Below, piece after piece: positions 17,805-30,828 of a DNA stretch of 38,177 bases. Source of the DNA: an uncultured Verrucomicrobiota bacterium (lineage in GTDB: Bacteria > Verrucomicrobiota > Verrucomicrobiia > Chthoniobacterales > JACTMZ01); contig CAIZMQ010000074.1 in NCBI GenBank assembly GCA_903934135.1, positions 1 to 38,177 on the forward strand, given 5' to 3'. The notes below the pieces were generated by a model. The model did not search any database. It was not told where the DNA came from and was given only the letters and a program-made list of their open reading frames with translations. The translations under genes were made by a program, and so were the position numbers. Positions within the stretch are counted from its first letter, which is position 1. Each line of letters starts with the position of its first letter.

Positions 17805-20116
17805 CCTTCGCCCGCCCCGAGTGGCTCCATGCCTTGTGGCTTCTGCCCCTCGGCGCGGCGCTCTTTTGGTGGGCCGAGCAGCGGCGGCGTGTGCTCATTG
17901 CGTGCATCGTCGCACCCAAGCTGCGCAGCCTCTTGGCCGGCAACACCAGTCCCTTCCGGCGCTGGTTGCGCGCGGCCTGTGTTCTCGGAGCGCTCGGTTT
18001 GCTCGCGGCGACCCTGGCGGGCCCTCAGCTTGGCTATGACACTCTGGAGGTTCCCCACCGCGGGCGTGATGTTATCATCGCCATGGACGTCTCGCGTTCC
18101 ATGCTGGCCACCGATGTGGCGCCGACGCGCTTGCAGCGTGCCAAGCTGCTGGCGGAGGACCTGGTTGGCGAACTGGGGAGCGATCGCCTTGGTTTGGTCG
18201 CCTTTGCCGGGTCGGCCTTTTTGCAGGCGCCGCTCACCCTGGACCATGGTGCGGTGCTGGCTGCGGTGGACGAGCTCGACACGGACCTCATACCCAAGGG
18301 CGGAACCAACATTGCGGCCGCCATCCGTGCCTGTGAGGAAGCCTTCGGCAAAGCGGAGGGATTTTCGCGGGCGATTGTTATTATTTCGGACGGGGAAGAA
18401 CTTGATGCGGACGGCCTGGAGGCGGCGCGTCAAGCGGGTGCGGCCGGTATCCGCATCTTCACCGTGGGTGTGGGCTCGGAGGAGGGATCGGAGATTCCGC
18501 TCGGCCCGGGCGAATTCGTGCGCGATCAATCCGGCAAGGTGGTCCAATCGCGTCTCGACGCCGCCCGCATGCGGGAGATCGCGGGAGTGACCGGCGGCTT
18601 TTATGTCCCGCTCGACGAGGATGCCGCGCGGTTGTTGTCGACGGACGGCATCGGCCGGATGCAAGAAGTCGAGATGAGCGCCAGTGCTTCACGTCGTCCG
18701 ATCGAGCGCTACCAATGGCCTTTGGGTGCCGCCGTCGCGTTGCTCTGCTTGCAGGCCCTAATCGGCGAGCGCCGTCGCCGTCTGTTCGCCGCGGCAGCTC
18801 TCTGGTTGCTCTCGGCTTCGTCCGGGTGGTCGTCCGGCCTCGACGAATACAACGCCGGAAATTACGAGCAGGCCCGGCAGGAATTCGAGCAAAGGCTGCG
18901 CATGGAGCCCGAAGCGCCGGGGTTGCAACTCAACGCCGGCACGGCGGCTTACCGTCTGCAGGATTACGGCAAGGCCTCGGAATTTTTTTCGCGCGCGATG
19001 CTGGCCGACGATCCGCTTCTGCGTTCCTCCGCGGAATTCAACCTCGGCAATACGCTCTTTCGTCAGGGTGAAGGTCAGGAGGACAAGGAGAAGAAAGTCA
19101 CCGATTGGAAAGACGCCATCGCCAAATACGAAGCCGCGCTCAAGACGCGTCCCGACTACACGGAGGCCAAGGAAAACAAAGAGCGCGTCGAGGAGTTGCT
19201 CAAGCAACTCGAGCAGGAGCAGCCGGAAAAAGACGAGCAAAAGAAGGACCAGAAGCAAGATCAGCAAAAGGGCGATCAAGAGGACAAAAAAGACCAACAA
19301 CAAGGCGGGAAGCAGGATCAGAAGGATCAGCAACAGGGCGGCGAGCAGGACAAGAAGGACGAGGAACAACAGGGCGGCGAGCAGGATAAGCAGGACCAAC
19401 AGCAGGGCGGTGAGCAGGACAAAAAGGAGGAAGGAAAAGGCGACCAAAAACAGGACCAGCCCTCGGCGGATGGAGGCAAGGACGAGCAGGATAAGAAAGG
19501 CGACCAGCCGCAGGATCAGCAACAAGGTGGGGGCGGCAAAGAAGAGCAAAAAGACGAACCGGGCAGCGGCGGCCAGGACAAGCAGGAGGGTGAATCGGGC
19601 GACGAGAAGAAGGACGAAGGCAAGTCCGGCCAGCAACAGGACGAGCAACAACCGGGCGGTGGCGGCAAAGAGGAGCAGGATCAGCCGCAGGAAGGTAAGC
19701 AGGAGAAGAAAGACCAAGCGCAAGGTGGCCAAGGCGACCAGAAGGATGAAAAGCAGGAGGACGGCAAAGGTCGCGAGGGCGAACCTCAGAAGGAAGGCGA
19801 GGGCGGAGAATCCGAGGATTCAGGTCAGGGTGATTCCCCCGGCCGTCGCCCCGAACCCGGTCAATCCGGCGACCAATCCGCGCCCGTTCCGCAGCAGGGC
19901 GGGGAGAAAAAGGAGGGCGAATTGCGCGGCACGGCCGGCGAGGGCGCCGGCAAGGAAGAGGCCGCGGCGGTGGCTGAAGCGGAGGCGGAGGAAGAAGTTG
20001 AGGGCAAAATGAGCGCCTCCCAAGCGCGGGCTTTGTTGCGTTCTTTGCAGACGGAAGAAGAACAGGTCGATCTGCGCGAACGTCGGACCTTTCAGGATGT
20101 CTCAAGAGACTGGTAG
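17786..20116 (+). CDS. BatB-BatC fusion: VWA membrane protein with TPR domain and long polar repeat linker
   Basis: A 776-residue protein, much longer than BatB alone (about 330). Residues 1-345 are BatB-like: N-terminal membrane segments, MIDAS AMDVSRSM around residue 101, LGLVAFAGSAFLQAPLTLD, IVIISDGEELDADGLEAA and a later transmembrane region (LGAAVALLCLQALI, LFAAAALWLLSASSGW). From about 351 a TPR domain follows (GLDEYNAGNYEQARQEFEQR, YRLQDYGKASEFFSRAM, AEFNLGNTLFRQGEG), as in BatC. From about 478 to 670 the chain is almost purely Q, K, D, E and G with repeating QQGG units, continuing Gly/Glu/Pro-rich to about 725. It ends with a conserved-looking helix (MSASQARALLRSLQTEEEQV). It overlaps batA by 19 bases. 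The tail is probably a flexible periplasmic or cytoplasmic tether. Confidence 0.93.
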   Translation: METSALTFARPEWLHALWLLPLGAALFWWAEQRRRVLIACIVAPKLRSLLAGNTSPFRRWLRAACVLGALGLLAATLAGPQLGYDTLEVPHRGRDVIIAMDVSRSMLATDVAPTRLQRAKLLAEDLVGELGSDRLGLVAFAGSAFLQAPLTLDHGAVLAAVDELDTDLIPKGGTNIAAAIRACEEAFGKAEGFSRAIVIISDGEELDADGLEAARQAGAAGIRIFTVGVGSEEGSEIPLGPGEFVRDQSGKVVQSRLDAARMREIAGVTGGFYVPLDEDAARLLSTDGIGRMQEVEMSASASRRPIERYQWPLGAAVALLCLQALIGERRRRLFAAAALWLLSASSGWSSGLDEYNAGNYEQARQEFEQRLRMEPEAPGLQLNAGTAAYRLQDYGKASEFFSRAMLADDPLLRSSAEFNLGNTLFRQGEGQEDKEKKVTDWKDAIAKYEAALKTRPDYTEAKENKERVEELLKQLEQEQPEKDEQKKDQKQDQQKGDQEDKKDQQQGGKQDQKDQQQGGEQDKKDEEQQGGEQDKQDQQQGGEQDKKEEGKGDQKQDQPSADGGKDEQDKKGDQPQDQQQGGGGKEEQKDEPGSGGQDKQEGESGDEKKDEGKSGQQQDEQQPGGGGKEEQDQPQEGKQEKKDQAQGGQGDQKDEKQEDGKGREGEPQKEGEGGESEDSGQGDSPGRRPEPGQSGDQSAPVPQQGGEKKEGELRGTAGEGAGKEEAAAVAEAEAEEEVEGKMSASQARALLRSLQTEEEQVDLRERRTFQDVSRDW

Positions 20117-20117
20117 A

Positions 20118-22025
20118 ATGATCGCCCGCATGAATTCCGCCCCCCGCCTGCTCGCCTTTGCGGCCCTGTTCTTGCTCGCCGCCGGCCCGGTGCGTGCCCA
20201 GGTCGCAACGAGTCTGAGTTCGCAGACTGGCCAGGTTGGCGTTCCGCTGCAGCTCCAATACCAATTCAGCAACGTCGGCAAACCCGCGGACATGCCACGC
20301 TCGATCATGGTCGACGGCCTGGAAATCCGGCTCACCGGCACCTCACGCCGCGTGGAGATGGTCAACCTGCAGACCACCTCGATGTTCATCTTCGCTTACA
20401 CCGTCATGCCGAATCGTCCGGGCAATTTCACCGTTCCCGGTTTTGCCGTGCAGGTCGATGGACGTCAGGTCCGGACTCAAGCGGTGAGCCTGCGCGTGGC
20501 CGGTTCGGGCGGTAGCATGCCTCCGCCGCCGGGACCCGGCGTGCAGGGCCAGATTCCCGGGCCGCCGATGCCGCAACAGCAACCTTCGCAGCAACGCCCG
20601 CCGCGCCAAGTGGCGCCTTCCGGACAACCCTCCGCCCGCCCCGCGCCCCGCACCAGCAGCGGCGAACCCGCGCCTTATTACGGCGAGATTGTCATGGGCG
20701 AGAAAAAGAGCGCCTACGTCGGCGAAGTGGTGCCCGTCGAATTGCGCTTCTATTTCCGCGCCGACTGCCAGTTCGACAACTTGCAGCGTCCGACCTTCGG
20801 CGGCGACGGATTCACCGCTGCGCCATTGAGCGAACCCGAGCAGACCGAGCAATACCTCGATGACATCCCCTATAATATTGTGACCTTCCGCAGTGCGATC
20901 ACCCCGGCGAAGAGCGGACCGCTCGAGATTCCGCCCGCGCAGATGGAAGGACGCATGGTTGCGCCGGGCAGTCCGGCCGGGCTCGATCCGTTCTTCGATC
21001 AATTTTTCCAGAATTTCCCCATGCCCGGGATCGGCCGCGCGGAGAATATCCAGGCGACTACCAACGAACGCCAACTCGACGTCCAGCCGCTGCCCAAGGA
21101 AGACCGGCCGGAAAATTTCTCCGGTGCCGTCGGCCAATTCACCCTCAAAGCCTCCGCCGATCCGAAGCAAGCCGCCTCGGGCGATCCGGTCACTCTCACC
21201 CTCACGGTCGAGGGCCGGGGCAACTTCGATGCGATGGGACCGCCAACCCTGACCGGCGCTGACGGCTGGCGCTCTTACGCGCCGAAGGAATCTTTCGACG
21301 GCAACGATGCCATCGGTTTCGGCGGCACCAAGACCTTCGAGGTCAGCATGGTGGCGCGGGAAGACCGGACCGCCACGCCCGGCGCGGAGTTTTCCTATTT
21401 CGACCCGATCAAGAAAAAATACGTCACCCTCAAGACCGAGCCGGTCGCCGTCACGGCGGCGGGCTCCGCATCTGCGGCCGATAGCACCGCGGCGGCCGGA
21501 GCCGACGAAGATCTGCCGCCCACGGCCGGCGCCCCGAATGATATCGCCGCACCCGCTACGGTCCTTTCCTCGCGTGGTCCGGATTTTCGTCCGTGGATCA
21601 CTTCTGATTGGTTTCACTTGCTCAACTTTGCCGTCCTCGCCGCGCTGATCATTTCCATTCCCTACCTCATCTGGATGCGCCGCCGGGCGAAAAAGGATGC
21701 GCGGACCGTCGAACTCGAGTCCTCGGTCCGCACGGCCAAGGCGGCCTGGCAGAAGGCGACCGATCCGATGGAGTTCTATGCCGCCGCCGGGCAATTCATG
21801 GTCGCGCGGCTGGCCTTGTGGGATGACAAACCCGCGACTTTGGTCGATCCGGCCGAGGCCCTGACGCGGCGGATTGCCGATCCCGCCGAGCGGCGCCAAT
21901 TGCAATCCGTGTTGGCCAAACGCGATGAACTCCATTACGGACGGTCCAGCGGAGGTGCGCTTGACCCCGAAGAGCGGCGCCGTGTCACCGACCTGCTGGA
22001 AAAATTTGCCAAAAATCATGGTTAG
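20118..22025 (+). CDS. batD: BatD-like oxygen tolerance protein
   Basis: About 635 residues. A signal peptide (MNSAPRLLAFAALFLLAAGPVRAQ) leads to a BatD N-domain of beta-sandwich character (SSQTGQVGVPLQLQYQFSNV, RPGNFTVPGFAVQVDGRQV). A Pro/Gln-rich linker at about 140-185 precedes a second block (YYGEIVMGEKKSAYVGEVVP, PVTLTLTVEGRGNFDAMGPP). A transmembrane segment near residue 500 (LNFAVLAALIISIPYLIWM) is followed by a cytoplasmic helical tail. It fits BatD (PF13584). Three in-frame starts are close: 20097, 20118 and 20130. 20118 was taken because it sits just after the upstream stop, but 20130 gives the cleanest signal peptide. Ends 8 bases inside the next gene. Confidence 0.92.
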   Translation: MIARMNSAPRLLAFAALFLLAAGPVRAQVATSLSSQTGQVGVPLQLQYQFSNVGKPADMPRSIMVDGLEIRLTGTSRRVEMVNLQTTSMFIFAYTVMPNRPGNFTVPGFAVQVDGRQVRTQAVSLRVAGSGGSMPPPPGPGVQGQIPGPPMPQQQPSQQRPPRQVAPSGQPSARPAPRTSSGEPAPYYGEIVMGEKKSAYVGEVVPVELRFYFRADCQFDNLQRPTFGGDGFTAAPLSEPEQTEQYLDDIPYNIVTFRSAITPAKSGPLEIPPAQMEGRMVAPGSPAGLDPFFDQFFQNFPMPGIGRAENIQATTNERQLDVQPLPKEDRPENFSGAVGQFTLKASADPKQAASGDPVTLTLTVEGRGNFDAMGPPTLTGADGWRSYAPKESFDGNDAIGFGGTKTFEVSMVAREDRTATPGAEFSYFDPIKKKYVTLKTEPVAVTAAGSASAADSTAAAGADEDLPPTAGAPNDIAAPATVLSSRGPDFRPWITSDWFHLLNFAVLAALIISIPYLIWMRRRAKKDARTVELESSVRTAKAAWQKATDPMEFYAAAGQFMVARLALWDDKPATLVDPAEALTRRIADPAERRQLQSVLAKRDELHYGRSSGGALDPEERRRVTDLLEKFAKNHG

Positions 22026-22779
22026 AAAACTTCTCCTTCCACTCCTGCTCGCCGTCGCCACGGCCACGGCCCAACCGGCCGATGAAAACACGCTCTTCGA
22101 GCAGGGCAACCGGGCCTATGCCGAAGGCGACTACGCTGCGGCGCGCGAAGCTTACGAGCAACTGGTCAAGTCGGGCTCGCGTAATCCCGCGGTGTTTCTC
22201 AATCTCGGCCATGCCGACTACCGTCTGGGCCGCGAAGTGCCCGCCGCGATCAACTACCGCCGGGCCCTCGCGCTCGATCCGGCCAACACCGCGGCCCGCA
22301 GCAGTCTCGAGCACGTGCTCGGCGAGCTCGGCGTGCCTGCACCCGGACTTGGGGCGGCGGAAATTGTCGGGCAATACATCCGCTTCGATCTGCTTGCCTT
22401 GATCGGCAGTCTGCTTTTCTGGGCCGGAACCATTGCCTTTGTCTTCGCCATCTTCTCCGTGGTGCGACGTCCGGGTTTGATCGTCGCCGGTGTGCTTGCC
22501 GCGGTCGTCGGGGCCACCTTGGTCGCGCTCTCGTGGGCCGGCGACTCGCGCATCGCCTTGTCCAAGACCTCGATCATTGTGGGCGACGCAACCGACGCGC
22601 GCAGCACGCCGGCCGACAACGGGCAAAATTTGGCCGACCTGCCGGTTGGCACGCCGGTGCGGGTCATTGCCGCGCGCGACGATTGGTCGCTCGTCCGCCT
22701 TCCGGTCGGCGTCGACGGCTGGGTACGCAGCAGCGCGCTCGAACCGGTTTTCCCCGGTGCCCTGCCTGTCATCCCGTGA
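22018..22779 (+). CDS. BatE-like protein with TPR and SH3 domains
   Basis: A 253-residue exported or membrane protein. Signal peptide (MVRKLLLPLLLAVATATAQ), then two to three TPRs (FEQGNRAYAEGDYAAAREAY, NLGHADYRLGREVPAAINYR, ALALDPANTAARSSL). Two transmembrane segments follow at about 118-175 (LLALIGSLLFWAGTIAFVFA; LIVAGVLAAVVGATLVALSW). The C-terminal 70 residues are a bacterial SH3-like domain (DARSTPADNGQNLADLPVG, DDWSLVRLPVGVDGWV). This TPR-TM-TM-SH3 order is the usual BatE layout. It overlaps batD by 8 bases, and its TGA is overlapped by the GTG start of the DUF3108 gene. SH3 modules of this type often touch peptidoglycan, so a cell-wall contact is a reasonable inference. Confidence 0.9.
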   Translation: MVRKLLLPLLLAVATATAQPADENTLFEQGNRAYAEGDYAAAREAYEQLVKSGSRNPAVFLNLGHADYRLGREVPAAINYRRALALDPANTAARSSLEHVLGELGVPAPGLGAAEIVGQYIRFDLLALIGSLLFWAGTIAFVFAIFSVVRRPGLIVAGVLAAVVGATLVALSWAGDSRIALSKTSIIVGDATDARSTPADNGQNLADLPVGTPVRVIAARDDWSLVRLPVGVDGWVRSSALEPVFPGALPVIP

Positions 22780-23567
22780 TCCGGGCCTTTCTCTTTGCGG
22801 TCTTGGTTCTCTCCGTGGGGGAGGCCCGGGCCGATTGGCGGACCGAGGCCGCCGCGCTCCGGCCCGGTCCTTATCCGCCCCCGCCGGATAATCTCCGGGC
22901 GCGCTACGTTTTCGGTTGGGGCGGTTTCGAGGCGGCGGCCGCCGACGTGCGGCTCGAACGCGGGACCGGACGGACTTGGAATGCCACGGTGCGCGGCGGC
23001 ACGACCGGTGTGGTGCGCAAGTTGTGGAAGCTTGATGCGGACTACGATGCGGAAGTTTCTGAAGACGGCTGGCGGTCCATCCAGTTCACCCTGATCGAGA
23101 AATACAAACGTTACCGCGTGACCGAGACGACCGAGTTCCGTCCGGGGGGAGTGCGCTCGCGCCGGGTCAATTCGAAAGATGCAGGCTCGGACCCGAAGTG
23201 GCTCAACTTTTACGTCGGCGGTCTGCGCGACATGGCCGGTGCTTTACTCCTGGCCCGCAGTCAACCCTTGGCCACCGGCGACACGCTCAAGCTCGCCGTC
23301 TTTCCCGGGGAATGGATGTATCTCGTGCGGCTTAAAGTCATCGGTCGCGAGACCCTCCGCTGGCGGGGTGAGCAGCGCAAGGTCATCCGTTGTGCCATGG
23401 ACATCGATTGGATCGGCAAAGACTACTCCCTCCAGCCGCATAAAAAATTCCAACGCGGCACGGTCTGGGTGAGCGACGACGAAGTGCGCCTCCCCCTACG
23501 CGTCGAAGTCAAAGTCTTCATCGGCCACGTCTTCGCCGAATTGGCTGAAGTAAAAGCGGTGCTCTGA
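22776..23567 (+). CDS. DUF3108 domain exported protein
   Basis: A 263-residue protein with signal peptide (MIRAFLFAVLVLSVGEARAD), then a single beta-rich domain matching DUF3108: LRARYVFGWGGFEAAAADV, GGTTGVVRKLWKLDADYDAE, TLIEKYKRYRVTETTEF, GDTLKLAVFPGEWMYLVRLK, and a C-terminal VWVSDDEVRLPLRVEVKVFIG. Family proteins are periplasmic with unclear function. The start is a GTG at 22776 whose bases overlap the TGA of the BatE-like gene (GTGA), so its translation is probably coupled. It is the last gene of the Bat cluster. It could be an unrelated passenger or a client of the complex. Confidence 0.9.
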   Translation: MIRAFLFAVLVLSVGEARADWRTEAAALRPGPYPPPPDNLRARYVFGWGGFEAAAADVRLERGTGRTWNATVRGGTTGVVRKLWKLDADYDAEVSEDGWRSIQFTLIEKYKRYRVTETTEFRPGGVRSRRVNSKDAGSDPKWLNFYVGGLRDMAGALLLARSQPLATGDTLKLAVFPGEWMYLVRLKVIGRETLRWRGEQRKVIRCAMDIDWIGKDYSLQPHKKFQRGTVWVSDDEVRLPLRVEVKVFIGHVFAELAEVKAVL

Positions 23568-23710: not shown

Positions 23711-23736
23711 AAAGCGGCGTCAACCGCCGCACTCCA
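23711..23736. repeat. Dispersed intergenic repeat (copy 1), GCGGCG/CGCCGC hairpin plus CACTCCA
   Basis: AAAGCGGCGTCAACCGCCGC followed by ACTCCA matches 30802-30828 except for one substitution and a one-base length difference. It contains a 6-base perfect stem. It sits between the convergent ends of the Bat operon and the Cys-rich genes, just beyond the terminator. Confidence 0.65.
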
Positions 23737-23737
23737 G

Positions 23738-23770
23738 AAAAAAGACGCGCCCCGGTTTCCCGGGGCGCGT
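23738..23770 (-). terminator. Rho-independent terminator of the Cys-rich/antiporter transcript
   Basis: On the minus strand an 11-base perfect GC-rich stem (arms 23745-23755 and 23760-23770, loop of 4) is followed by a run of six T. It lies 24 bases after the stop of the 43-residue Cys-rich gene. The plus-strand side lacks a good T-run, so it mainly serves the minus strand. Confidence 0.9.
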
Positions 23771-23794: not shown

Positions 23795-23926
23795 TTAGCA
23801 GCAGCCGGCAGCGCAGTCGCAGGGGCAGCATTGGCCGCCGCAGTCGGTGCACTTGCAGGCTTCTTTCGCCGTGACCGTGAAGGACAGGGCGAGGACCGCC
23901 AGGATTGCGAAGAGGAATTTTTTCAT
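23795..23926 (-). CDS. Exported Cys-rich micro-protein, 43 aa
   Basis: A short gene with good support. The ribosome-binding site GGAG lies 11 bases before the ATG, the protein starts MKKFLFAILAVLALSFTVTA (a textbook signal peptide), and a strong terminator follows. The mature peptide is only about 23 residues, EACKCTDCGGQCCPCDCAAG plus a final Cys pair, so roughly ten of its residues are cysteine. CxC, CxxC and CC spacings suggest metal binding (metallothionein-like) or a disulfide-knotted envelope peptide. No family recognised. The upstream minus-strand gene is another exported Cys-rich protein, 76 bases away. Real but function unknown. Confidence 0.75.
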   Translation of the reverse strand: MKKFLFAILAVLALSFTVTAKEACKCTDCGGQCCPCDCAAGCC

Positions 23927-24002
23927 TTTGATATTCTCCGTTGAGGTTTCGTTCCAATATTCCTTCCGCCAACGAGGACGGAAGCCGACGCTGAGTGAGC
24001 CC

Positions 24003-24311
24003 TCAGGCTCGCGGCGGGGGAACGGGCGGACGTGAGGTCCGCACGACGTAGGAGTCGTTCTCGAGCTGCGCCGCCGGTGAGCAGCAGGGCGCAAAGACAA
24101 TAGCCGGGGCAACGGCGGGAAGAATGAAGATGGTGGCTCCGCTGGTCTGACAGGCGATGGGCGGGCACGGACAGGCCGCGGTCTCGCAGCAGTTTGGGTC
24201 GGTCTGACAGCACTCGGCGGCGCGGGCGGCCGTGCTTGAGCTGGTGGCTGCGGGTGCCAGAGGCGCGAGGGCCAAACTCAGCAGCAGCAGGGGAATTGCA
24301 GCCATCTTCAT
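24003..24311 (-). CDS. Exported Cys- and Pro-rich protein, about 102 aa
   Basis: I do not recognise a family. The signal peptide is MKMAAIPLLLLSLALAPLAPAAT. The mature region has clustered cysteines (ECCQTDPNCCETAACPCPPI, then a further Cys, later PCCSP) and a hydrophobic patch (SGATIFILPAVAPAIVFA) that might be a membrane or surface segment. It ends Pro-rich (RPPVPPPRA). Three CC pairs echo the CC pairs of the 43-residue downstream protein. ATG 24311 was chosen; an in-frame GTG lies 18 bases upstream. A TTGACA on this strand at 24345-24340 with a weak TACTTT 16 bases later would give a nearly leaderless transcript, a marginal promoter candidate. Probably sits in the envelope; metal handling is a guess. 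Confidence 0.65.
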   Translation of the reverse strand: MKMAAIPLLLLSLALAPLAPAATSSSTAARAAECCQTDPNCCETAACPCPPIACQTSGATIFILPAVAPAIVFAPCCSPAAQLENDSYVVRTSRPPVPPPRA

Positions 24312-24353
24312 GGTTAAAAAGTAAGCCACTTGGGGATGGTGTCAACCGTCCCC

Positions 24354-28233: not shown

Positions 28234-28500
28234 ATGGAATTCGACTGGCTCGAGGCATCATTCGACCTCAAGGCGCTGACTCCGCGGGCGATCGAAGAAT
28301 CGTTCGAAGATCCGTTCAGTCTGCGTCTGCTGCCCGACTATGACCACGGTGAGGCGCGCTATTTCAACCTCGGACGCTCGGTCGAGGGGCGGGGAATTTT
28401 CAGCGTGTTCTGGACGGATGGCAAAACGGTGCGGGTAGTGGCGGCGCGGCCGATGACCAAGGACGAGGAAAACTTTTTCGAAAGGAAGAATGCCGAATAG
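28234..28500 (+). CDS. BrnT-like toxin of a type II toxin-antitoxin pair
   Basis: An 88-residue protein. FDWLEASFDLKALTPRAIEE, SFEDPFSLRLLPDYDHGEAR, YFNLGRSVEGRGIFSVFWTD and VRVVAARPMTKDEENFFER follow the BrnT pattern (a RelE-fold ribonuclease; core features are the DP box, D-x-x-HGE-x-R, I/L-GRS-x-x-GR and the R-x-A/S-x-R-x-x-x-x-E end). The first catalytic-like residues are present (D, H, R, and the final AARPMTKDE). The N-terminal W-x-x-x-K-x-x-x-N segment of classical BrnT is altered, lacking the KHGV stretch. It overlaps the next gene by 11 bases in the toxin-first order typical of brnTA. Cytoplasmic; expected to cut RNA under stress. Confidence 0.8.
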   Translation: MEFDWLEASFDLKALTPRAIEESFEDPFSLRLLPDYDHGEARYFNLGRSVEGRGIFSVFWTDGKTVRVVAARPMTKDEENFFERKNAE

Positions 28501-28777
28501 CGAAGCGAACGAGTTGCGCATGGTGCGTGCGTGGTCGGAGGTGCCCGCCTTCGATGATGAGGCGGCCGAGGCGGCATTCTGGTTGCGGCACAGTCTCGAC
28601 CCGAAGCTGATGAATGCGTCGATCCCGAAGAGTGACGCGCGCGAGTCGGCCACGGTGACCTTGCGGTTCGATCCGCGGATGCTGGCGCGGATCAAACGCG
28701 TGGCCCGCTCGCGGTATTTGAATTACCAGAGCATGATCAAGCAGTGGTTGGCGGAGAGGCTGGAGAAAGAGGGATGA
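28490..28777 (+). CDS. BrnA/CopG-like antitoxin
   Basis: A 95-residue protein overlapping the BrnT-like gene by 11 bases. The C-terminal half is a ribbon-helix-helix type segment: SATVTLRFDPRMLARIKRVA followed by YLNYQSMIKQWLAERLEKE, as in BrnA/CopG antitoxins (PF12441/PF14384). The N-terminal half (MVRAWSEVPAFDDEAAEAAF) would bind the toxin. Family knowledge: BrnA represses its own operon as a DNA-binding protein. Here the pair sits downstream of a VOC gene with no separate promoter visible. The stop codon lies inside repeat module B. Confidence 0.82.
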   Translation: MPNSEANELRMVRAWSEVPAFDDEAAEAAFWLRHSLDPKLMNASIPKSDARESATVTLRFDPRMLARIKRVARSRYLNYQSMIKQWLAERLEKEG

Positions 28778-30801: not shown

Positions 30802-30828
30802 AAAGCGGCGCCAAGCCGCCGCACTCCA
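30802..30828. repeat. Dispersed intergenic repeat (copy 2), GCGGCG/CGCCGC hairpin plus CACTCCA
   Basis: AAAGCGGCGCCAAGCCGCCG followed by CACTCCA. Matches 23711-23736 apart from one substitution and one extra base. Lies in the spacer between the transglutaminase-like gene and the tmRNA promoter. Confidence 0.65.

Follow-up and report, generated by a model that had tools for sequence, protein, structure and literature searches.

In a few tested cases, an exported protein is known to sense the metal of the envelope while it is still being made. The leader CutF of Rhodobacter capsulatus, whose output is a multicopper oxidase, carries one CxxxC motif, and 45 residues have been discussed between this Cys motif and the C-terminal proline-rich motif (PMC9973294). 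The same work surveyed CutF-like leaders and sorted the genes that follow them by Pfam domain (PMC9973294), and a survey of this kind would miss micropeptides without a name. CruR of Bordetella pertussis is a DUF2946 protein with a RAPP motif; relief of its arrest controls a TonB-dependent transporter, and a 162-nt intergenic region follows it (PMC9426467). RAPP/RGPP arrest peptides (PMC12992588, PMC10951233) are small, often exported leaders with a C-terminal Arg/Pro motif, located 5′ of metal, redox or Sec genes.

The window, the whole stretch of 38,177 nt analysed here, is one entire contig of the 2.27 Mb draft genome of a freshwater bacterium of the Chthoniobacterales type (Verrucomicrobiota). 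Its minus strand carries, in this order, a promoter, ORF2, a 76-nt gap with a hairpin and a ribosome-binding site, ORF1, and a terminator. We consider it probable that ORF2 is a CutF-like nascent-chain metal sensor (an arrest-peptide leader) whose output, ORF1, is an exported metallothionein-like peptide. The features are as follows.

24318..24345, minus strand: promoter TTGACA-N16-TACTTT, from the sequence; same layout in 7 of 7 genus members
24003..24311, minus strand: ORF2, exported leader of 102 aa that bears Cys, a proposed nascent-chain metal sensor (translation, profiles, dN/dS)
24003..24032, minus strand: RPPVPPPRA and stop codons, proposed arrest motif (genus invariance, order-wide conservation, codon skew)
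23963..23984, minus strand: intergenic hairpin CTTCCG...CGGAAG (stem letters vary among relatives, hairpin recurs)
23936..23939, minus strand: ORF1 Shine-Dalgarno GGAG, from the sequence, 9 nt 5′ of the ATG
23795..23926, minus strand: ORF1, 43-aa exported Cys-rich micropeptide with a 23-aa mature part containing 9 Cys (translation, conservation)
23735..23770, minus strand: intrinsic terminator, 11-bp stem at 23745-23770 with a T-rich tail

Because the −10 box of the ORF2 promoter ends 6 nt 5′ of the start codon, the ORF2 transcript is probably leaderless, with its 5′ end at or beside that codon; the spacing was 5-8 nt in all seven genus members carrying the unit. Promoters with at least 8 of 12 matches were found in 18 of 35 modules versus 1.1 expected from shuffles, and a generic promoter scan of fixed form requiring 9/12 did not list the ORF2 promoter. 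A GC-rich stem-loop lay 3′ of ORF1 in nearly all modules read. The ORF2-ORF1 pair would thus be transcribed as a unit of its own, about 580 nt long and holding both genes. Beyond the ORF1 terminator, we observed a second inverted repeat (AAAGCGGCGTCAACCGCCGCACTCC) at 23711-23736. It is possibly a dispersed repeat, with related sites at five further genomic positions; one of these, at 30802, lies just ahead of the tmRNA gene (RF00023, 30919-31274), the only Rfam match over the window.

The ORF1 protein (43 aa) consists of MKKFLFAILAVLALSFTVTA and, after a cleavage site placed by eye, KEACKCTDCGGQCCPCDCAAGCC; Cys makes up 9 of the 23 mature residues (39%). ORF2 (102 aa) opens with a signal-type N-terminus, MKMAAIPLLLLSLALAPLAPA, also judged by eye, carries CC pairs and CPCPP in two Cys clusters, and ends in RTSRPPVPPPRA, with a PP motif within the last 15 residues. 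Both frames were present in the same 7 of 11 same-genus genomes (own included), and the unit was absent from the other four, some of which are incomplete. Across the seven, every Cys of ORF1 and the PPVPPPRA C-terminus of ORF2 were invariant, and ORF1 started 69-84 nt 3′ of ORF2 (76 nt in the window). This C-terminus is the most conserved part of ORF2, the middle of which diverges across the genus (mean column identity 59%). Among genus members, dN was below dS (NG86) in all 21 pairs for ORF2 and in almost all pairs for ORF1. These results bear out the preliminary description, which had called both frames real genes for exported Cys-rich proteins with signal peptides, had noted a good ribosome-binding site and a strong terminator for the shorter one, and had asked for conservation in relatives, here seen in the genus and as pairs in other families of the order. 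It had missed the order ORF2 then ORF1, the conserved ORF2 C-terminus, the promoter belonging to ORF2 and the recurring intergenic hairpin.

Synonymous divergence of ORF1 (23798-23926) was unusually low, with dS of 0-0.74 versus 0.37-2.0 for the adjoining ORF2 in the same genomes; in the closest relative, ORF1 was identical, yet the first half of ORF2 differed. RNA-level constraint or recombination is a possible cause.

No Pfam or NCBIfam family fitted ORF1, in keeping with the earlier statement that it has no named family, and no metallothionein model matched it. Membership in a lipoprotein, metallothionein or defence family was rejected, with no match above the curated cut-off, and a search for a solved structural relative found none. 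ORF1 resembles bacterial metallothioneins in being small and extremely Cys-rich, but differs from them in its cleavable-type signal peptide, its mature length of about 23 aa and the lack of a Pfam/NCBIfam match. ORF1 is probably a metallothionein-like exported metal ligand with a presumed effector role.

We then examined the spacing within ORF2. A Cys stands 44 residues before PPP in the window, and 34 of 35 modules have one 43-46 residues ahead of PPP; about 11 would do so if their Cys, in the same number, were placed uniformly, the relatives not being independent. The first Cys cluster was placed more loosely, 64-76 residues before PPP, and the stretch between Cys cluster and C-terminus was variable in sequence and fixed in length. 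The ORF2 of the window did not match the DUF2946 profile (PF11162), and weak matches occurred in only 3 of 16 relatives (best E 0.0011); ORF2 was therefore not filed in PF11162.

An unbiased motif scan for the codons of RPPVPPPRA followed by a stop across 84,980 species genomes gave 27 matches, 17 of which were in MAGs of Verrucomicrobia, Spartobacteria or Chthoniobacterales. At all 17, an exported Cys-bearing ORF ends at the motif and a Cys micropeptide, in one case cut by the locus end, starts 63-78 nt downstream. The remaining ten (Actinomycetota, Pseudomonadota and Clostridia among others), five of which end in TGG instead of a stop, had no such gene pair and look like chance matches. Searching with an ORF2 profile brought up homologues from further families within the order, and nearly all of those examined were followed by a short exported Cys-rich peptide, commonly of the form MKYLLMI..ALIGTATATS..DCCGGG.CC....CCAK. 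With their differing Cys patterns, these ORF1 types are akin in position and build, and common descent is only a possibility. A comparison of the A1 and A4 profiles was set aside as circular, since A1 members are included in A4. A loosely defined DNA pattern applied across the class was uninformative, matching 299 of 384 genomes.

Within the class, leaders with related endings were also found before other genes. RPPVPPPRLA precedes an HMA-domain protein (below cut-off) and SCO1/SenC in genome G046, TPPTPPPRA precedes a TonB plug protein in G039, and RPPTPPPRA and RPPLPPPRA precede outer-membrane efflux proteins (OEP) in G594 and G618; several modules have HMBD proteins nearby, or else a cation-efflux protein together with an ABC-3 permease. 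These neighbours point to metal, most often copper, a pattern that does not prove the metal of the window's unit. Of the themes offered in the preliminary description, metal in the envelope is the best. No Cu-specific gene adjoins the unit in the window. As separate observations, five loci from Verrucomicrobiae (L182, L186, L187, L194 and L197) carry another leader class with a CPLCK-type motif and the C-terminus PPVPPPR or PPLLPPR, preceding long exported proteins that open with CxxC motifs (CDLCACDLP, CACGCGIF). At L014 in genome G015, a 9-Cys exported micropeptide related to ORF1 is preceded by an ORF ending in SHAPPTCF; this ending, a different arrest-like C-terminus, resembles the RAPP-like class.

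ORF2 shares with CutF-like leaders (PMC9973294) a length below 150 aa, a Sec-type signal peptide, a Cys motif separated by about 45 residues from a proline-rich motif at the C-terminus, a next same-strand gene within about 100 nt, and metal contexts that include OEP efflux proteins. It falls within the published CutF-like filters testable here and probably works like such a leader. The two differ in output, a multicopper oxidase for CutF and a 43-aa exported Cys-rich micropeptide for ORF2, and in the sensor, where ORF2 has two Cys clusters and the motif RPPVPPPRA. Unlike CutF, ORF2 has no reliable DUF2946 match, no clear shielding of the Shine-Dalgarno in its genus, a leaderless-type promoter, and a place in Verrucomicrobiota. 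CruR is likewise a small leader with a Cys motif and a C-terminal arrest-type motif at the head of an operon, but RPPVPPPRA and a gap of about 70 nt stand at ORF2 in place of RAPP and 162 nt. ORF2 also resembles the RAPP/RGPP arrest peptides in type and setting, with the difference that it contains the polyproline PPVPPP and neither RAPP nor RGPP. The main text of the CutF paper (PMC9973294) mentions neither Verrucomicrobia nor metallothioneins, and our open-access literature search returned no account of such a two-gene unit. Control of this general kind has been described for copper in other bacteria, whereas the output gene, arrest motif and lineage are new as far as the literature was searched. 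If the proposed reading is true, it would extend the mechanism to Verrucomicrobiota through a compact two-gene circuit with a new polyproline motif, and its effector, a metallothionein-like peptide that is exported, would be of a type without a described example in the literature searched. It would also hint at a function for dozens of micropeptides that lack annotation, and the unit is small enough for testing in E. coli.

In the proposed mechanism, the signal peptide of ORF2 would carry the nascent chain to the Sec translocon. By the time the RPPVPPPRA codons are being translated, the second Cys cluster, which lies 44-45 residues further back in the chain, would only just have arrived at the periplasmic opening of the translocon. 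If metal were bound by this cluster, with Cu or another thiophilic ion the likeliest, the polyproline motif would stop the ribosome where ORF2 ends. A ribosome arrested there would alter folding of the intergenic mRNA at the hairpin, and in some relatives also the pairing between the PPV codons and the ORF1 ribosome-binding site, so that ORF1 is translated. The ORF1 product would be exported and lose its signal peptide, leaving a 23-residue mature peptide with nine Cys to chelate metal in the envelope. Stalling, metal binding, metal identity, induction over repression, the mRNA switch and the effector function are the steps that we infer.

At the RNA level, the Val codon of the motif was GTT in 26 of 31 cases, against a usage of 11% in the genus and 18% in family f9. 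CCG was avoided at the second Pro (5/30) and favoured at Pro 4 and 5 (27/31 and 25/31). Such position-specific bias suggests selection on RNA or on decoding. The PPV codons CCNCCNGTT and the sequence AACAGGAGG, which is the ribosome-binding site conserved in f9, are complementary. Overall, motif/Shine-Dalgarno duplex energies beat synonymous recoding (Fisher p ~1e-5, relatives not being independent), and shuffling partners among loci gave a duplex p of 0.039; in the window's genus, complementarity was no better than synonymous recoding (p ~0.6-0.8 for most members). For 14 of 33 modules, the site became easier to open by over 1 kcal/mol once the motif codons were masked; in the window's genus the ORF1 site costs 1.1-2.6 kcal/mol to open, with relief from a stalled ribosome of at most 0.8. 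Strict shielding in this genus is unsupported by these duplex and opening-cost figures; some relatives show stronger shielding of the ORF1 ribosome-binding site. Uncovering of the ORF1 start site by a stalled ribosome would be plausible across the order and is unproved in this genus. The hairpin between the ORF2 stop and the ORF1 Shine-Dalgarno recurs with changing stem sequence among relatives; an RNAalifold consensus of the intergenic region gave no structure, with the hairpin arms misaligned by MAFFT. We tentatively raise, as a rather doubtful generalization, a verrucomicrobial leader class in which the PPV codons of the arrest motif (CCNCCNGTT) double as the anti-Shine-Dalgarno of the next gene (AACAGGAGG), so that a ribosome stalled on its own motif uncovers the start of an exported metallothionein-like micropeptide. 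If true, arrest peptide, sensor read-out and RNA switch would overlap in the same nine bases.

CruR works with the reverse sign of control; for the unit here we favour induction by metal because the ORF1 product looks like a sink. Under the reverse sign, the ribosome would arrest on ORF2 without metal and ORF1 would be made; metal would free the arrest and turn ORF1 off, for example by Rho-dependent termination, and ORF1 would serve metal capture or delivery and not detoxification. The related leader CruR, with RAPP at its C-terminus, behaves in this way (PMC9426467), a leader found in the same order stands ahead of a TonB plug protein, an arrangement shared with cruR, and termination needs no shielding of the ribosome-binding site, which is weakly shielded in this genus. 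However, the gap of about 70 nt, compared with 162 nt for cruR, leaves little room for a Rho site, ORF2 has no RAPP motif, and the micropeptide has the look of a metal sink, so we regard this sign as unlikely.

We give still less weight to ORF2 being a stable exported metal- or thiol-binding partner of ORF1, with its C-terminus conserved for protein function and not as an arrest motif, a reading we judge improbable. It corresponds to the secreted pair of the preliminary description, of which one part stands: both proteins are exported, carry Cys and always occur together. That they are equivalent partners is mostly unsupported, since ORF2 has the hallmarks of an arrest leader. The conserved part of ORF2 is the C-terminal polyproline with its skewed codons, the stretch before it keeps length and not sequence, and unrelated output genes follow similar leaders that share this C-terminus. 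With its signal peptide, Cys at a fixed distance from the C-terminal polyproline and position directly 5′ of a metal-type gene, ORF2 is most likely a cis-acting sensor, which would leave ORF1 as the only effector.

Sensing of thiol oxidation or Sec state, with a disulfide in nascent ORF2 setting the arrest and ORF1 acting as a thiol buffer or disulfide-linked envelope peptide, would suit Cys pairs in an oxidising compartment, and arrest leaders 5′ of thioredoxin/DsbA-type genes have been reported (PMC12992588). It is very unlikely, given that related leaders and modules adjoin metal genes and that ORF1 of the genus has an odd number of Cys (nine). The disulfide-knotted surface peptide suggested earlier is conceivable for ORF1 but found no positive support. 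That the ORFs are spurious, as their very short length and lack of a family model match might suggest, can practically be dismissed in view of conservation across families, purifying selection, and the pattern of promoter, ribosome-binding site and terminator.

The preliminary description had also placed the genes downstream of cation antiporters, a context that proved incidental. Genomes G008 and G010 carry the unit with no homologue of the adjacent antiporter found, and G007 and G009 carry the antiporter with other genes downstream and no unit; a functional tie to the neighbouring antiporters was rejected on this basis. Elsewhere in the window, genes for a BatD protein, a TPR/SH3 protein and a DUF3108 protein lie in a row on the plus strand at 20097-23567, as a Bat-type operon, and two short overlapping ORFs at 28234-28777 resemble, by eye, a putative BrnT/BrnA toxin-antitoxin pair.
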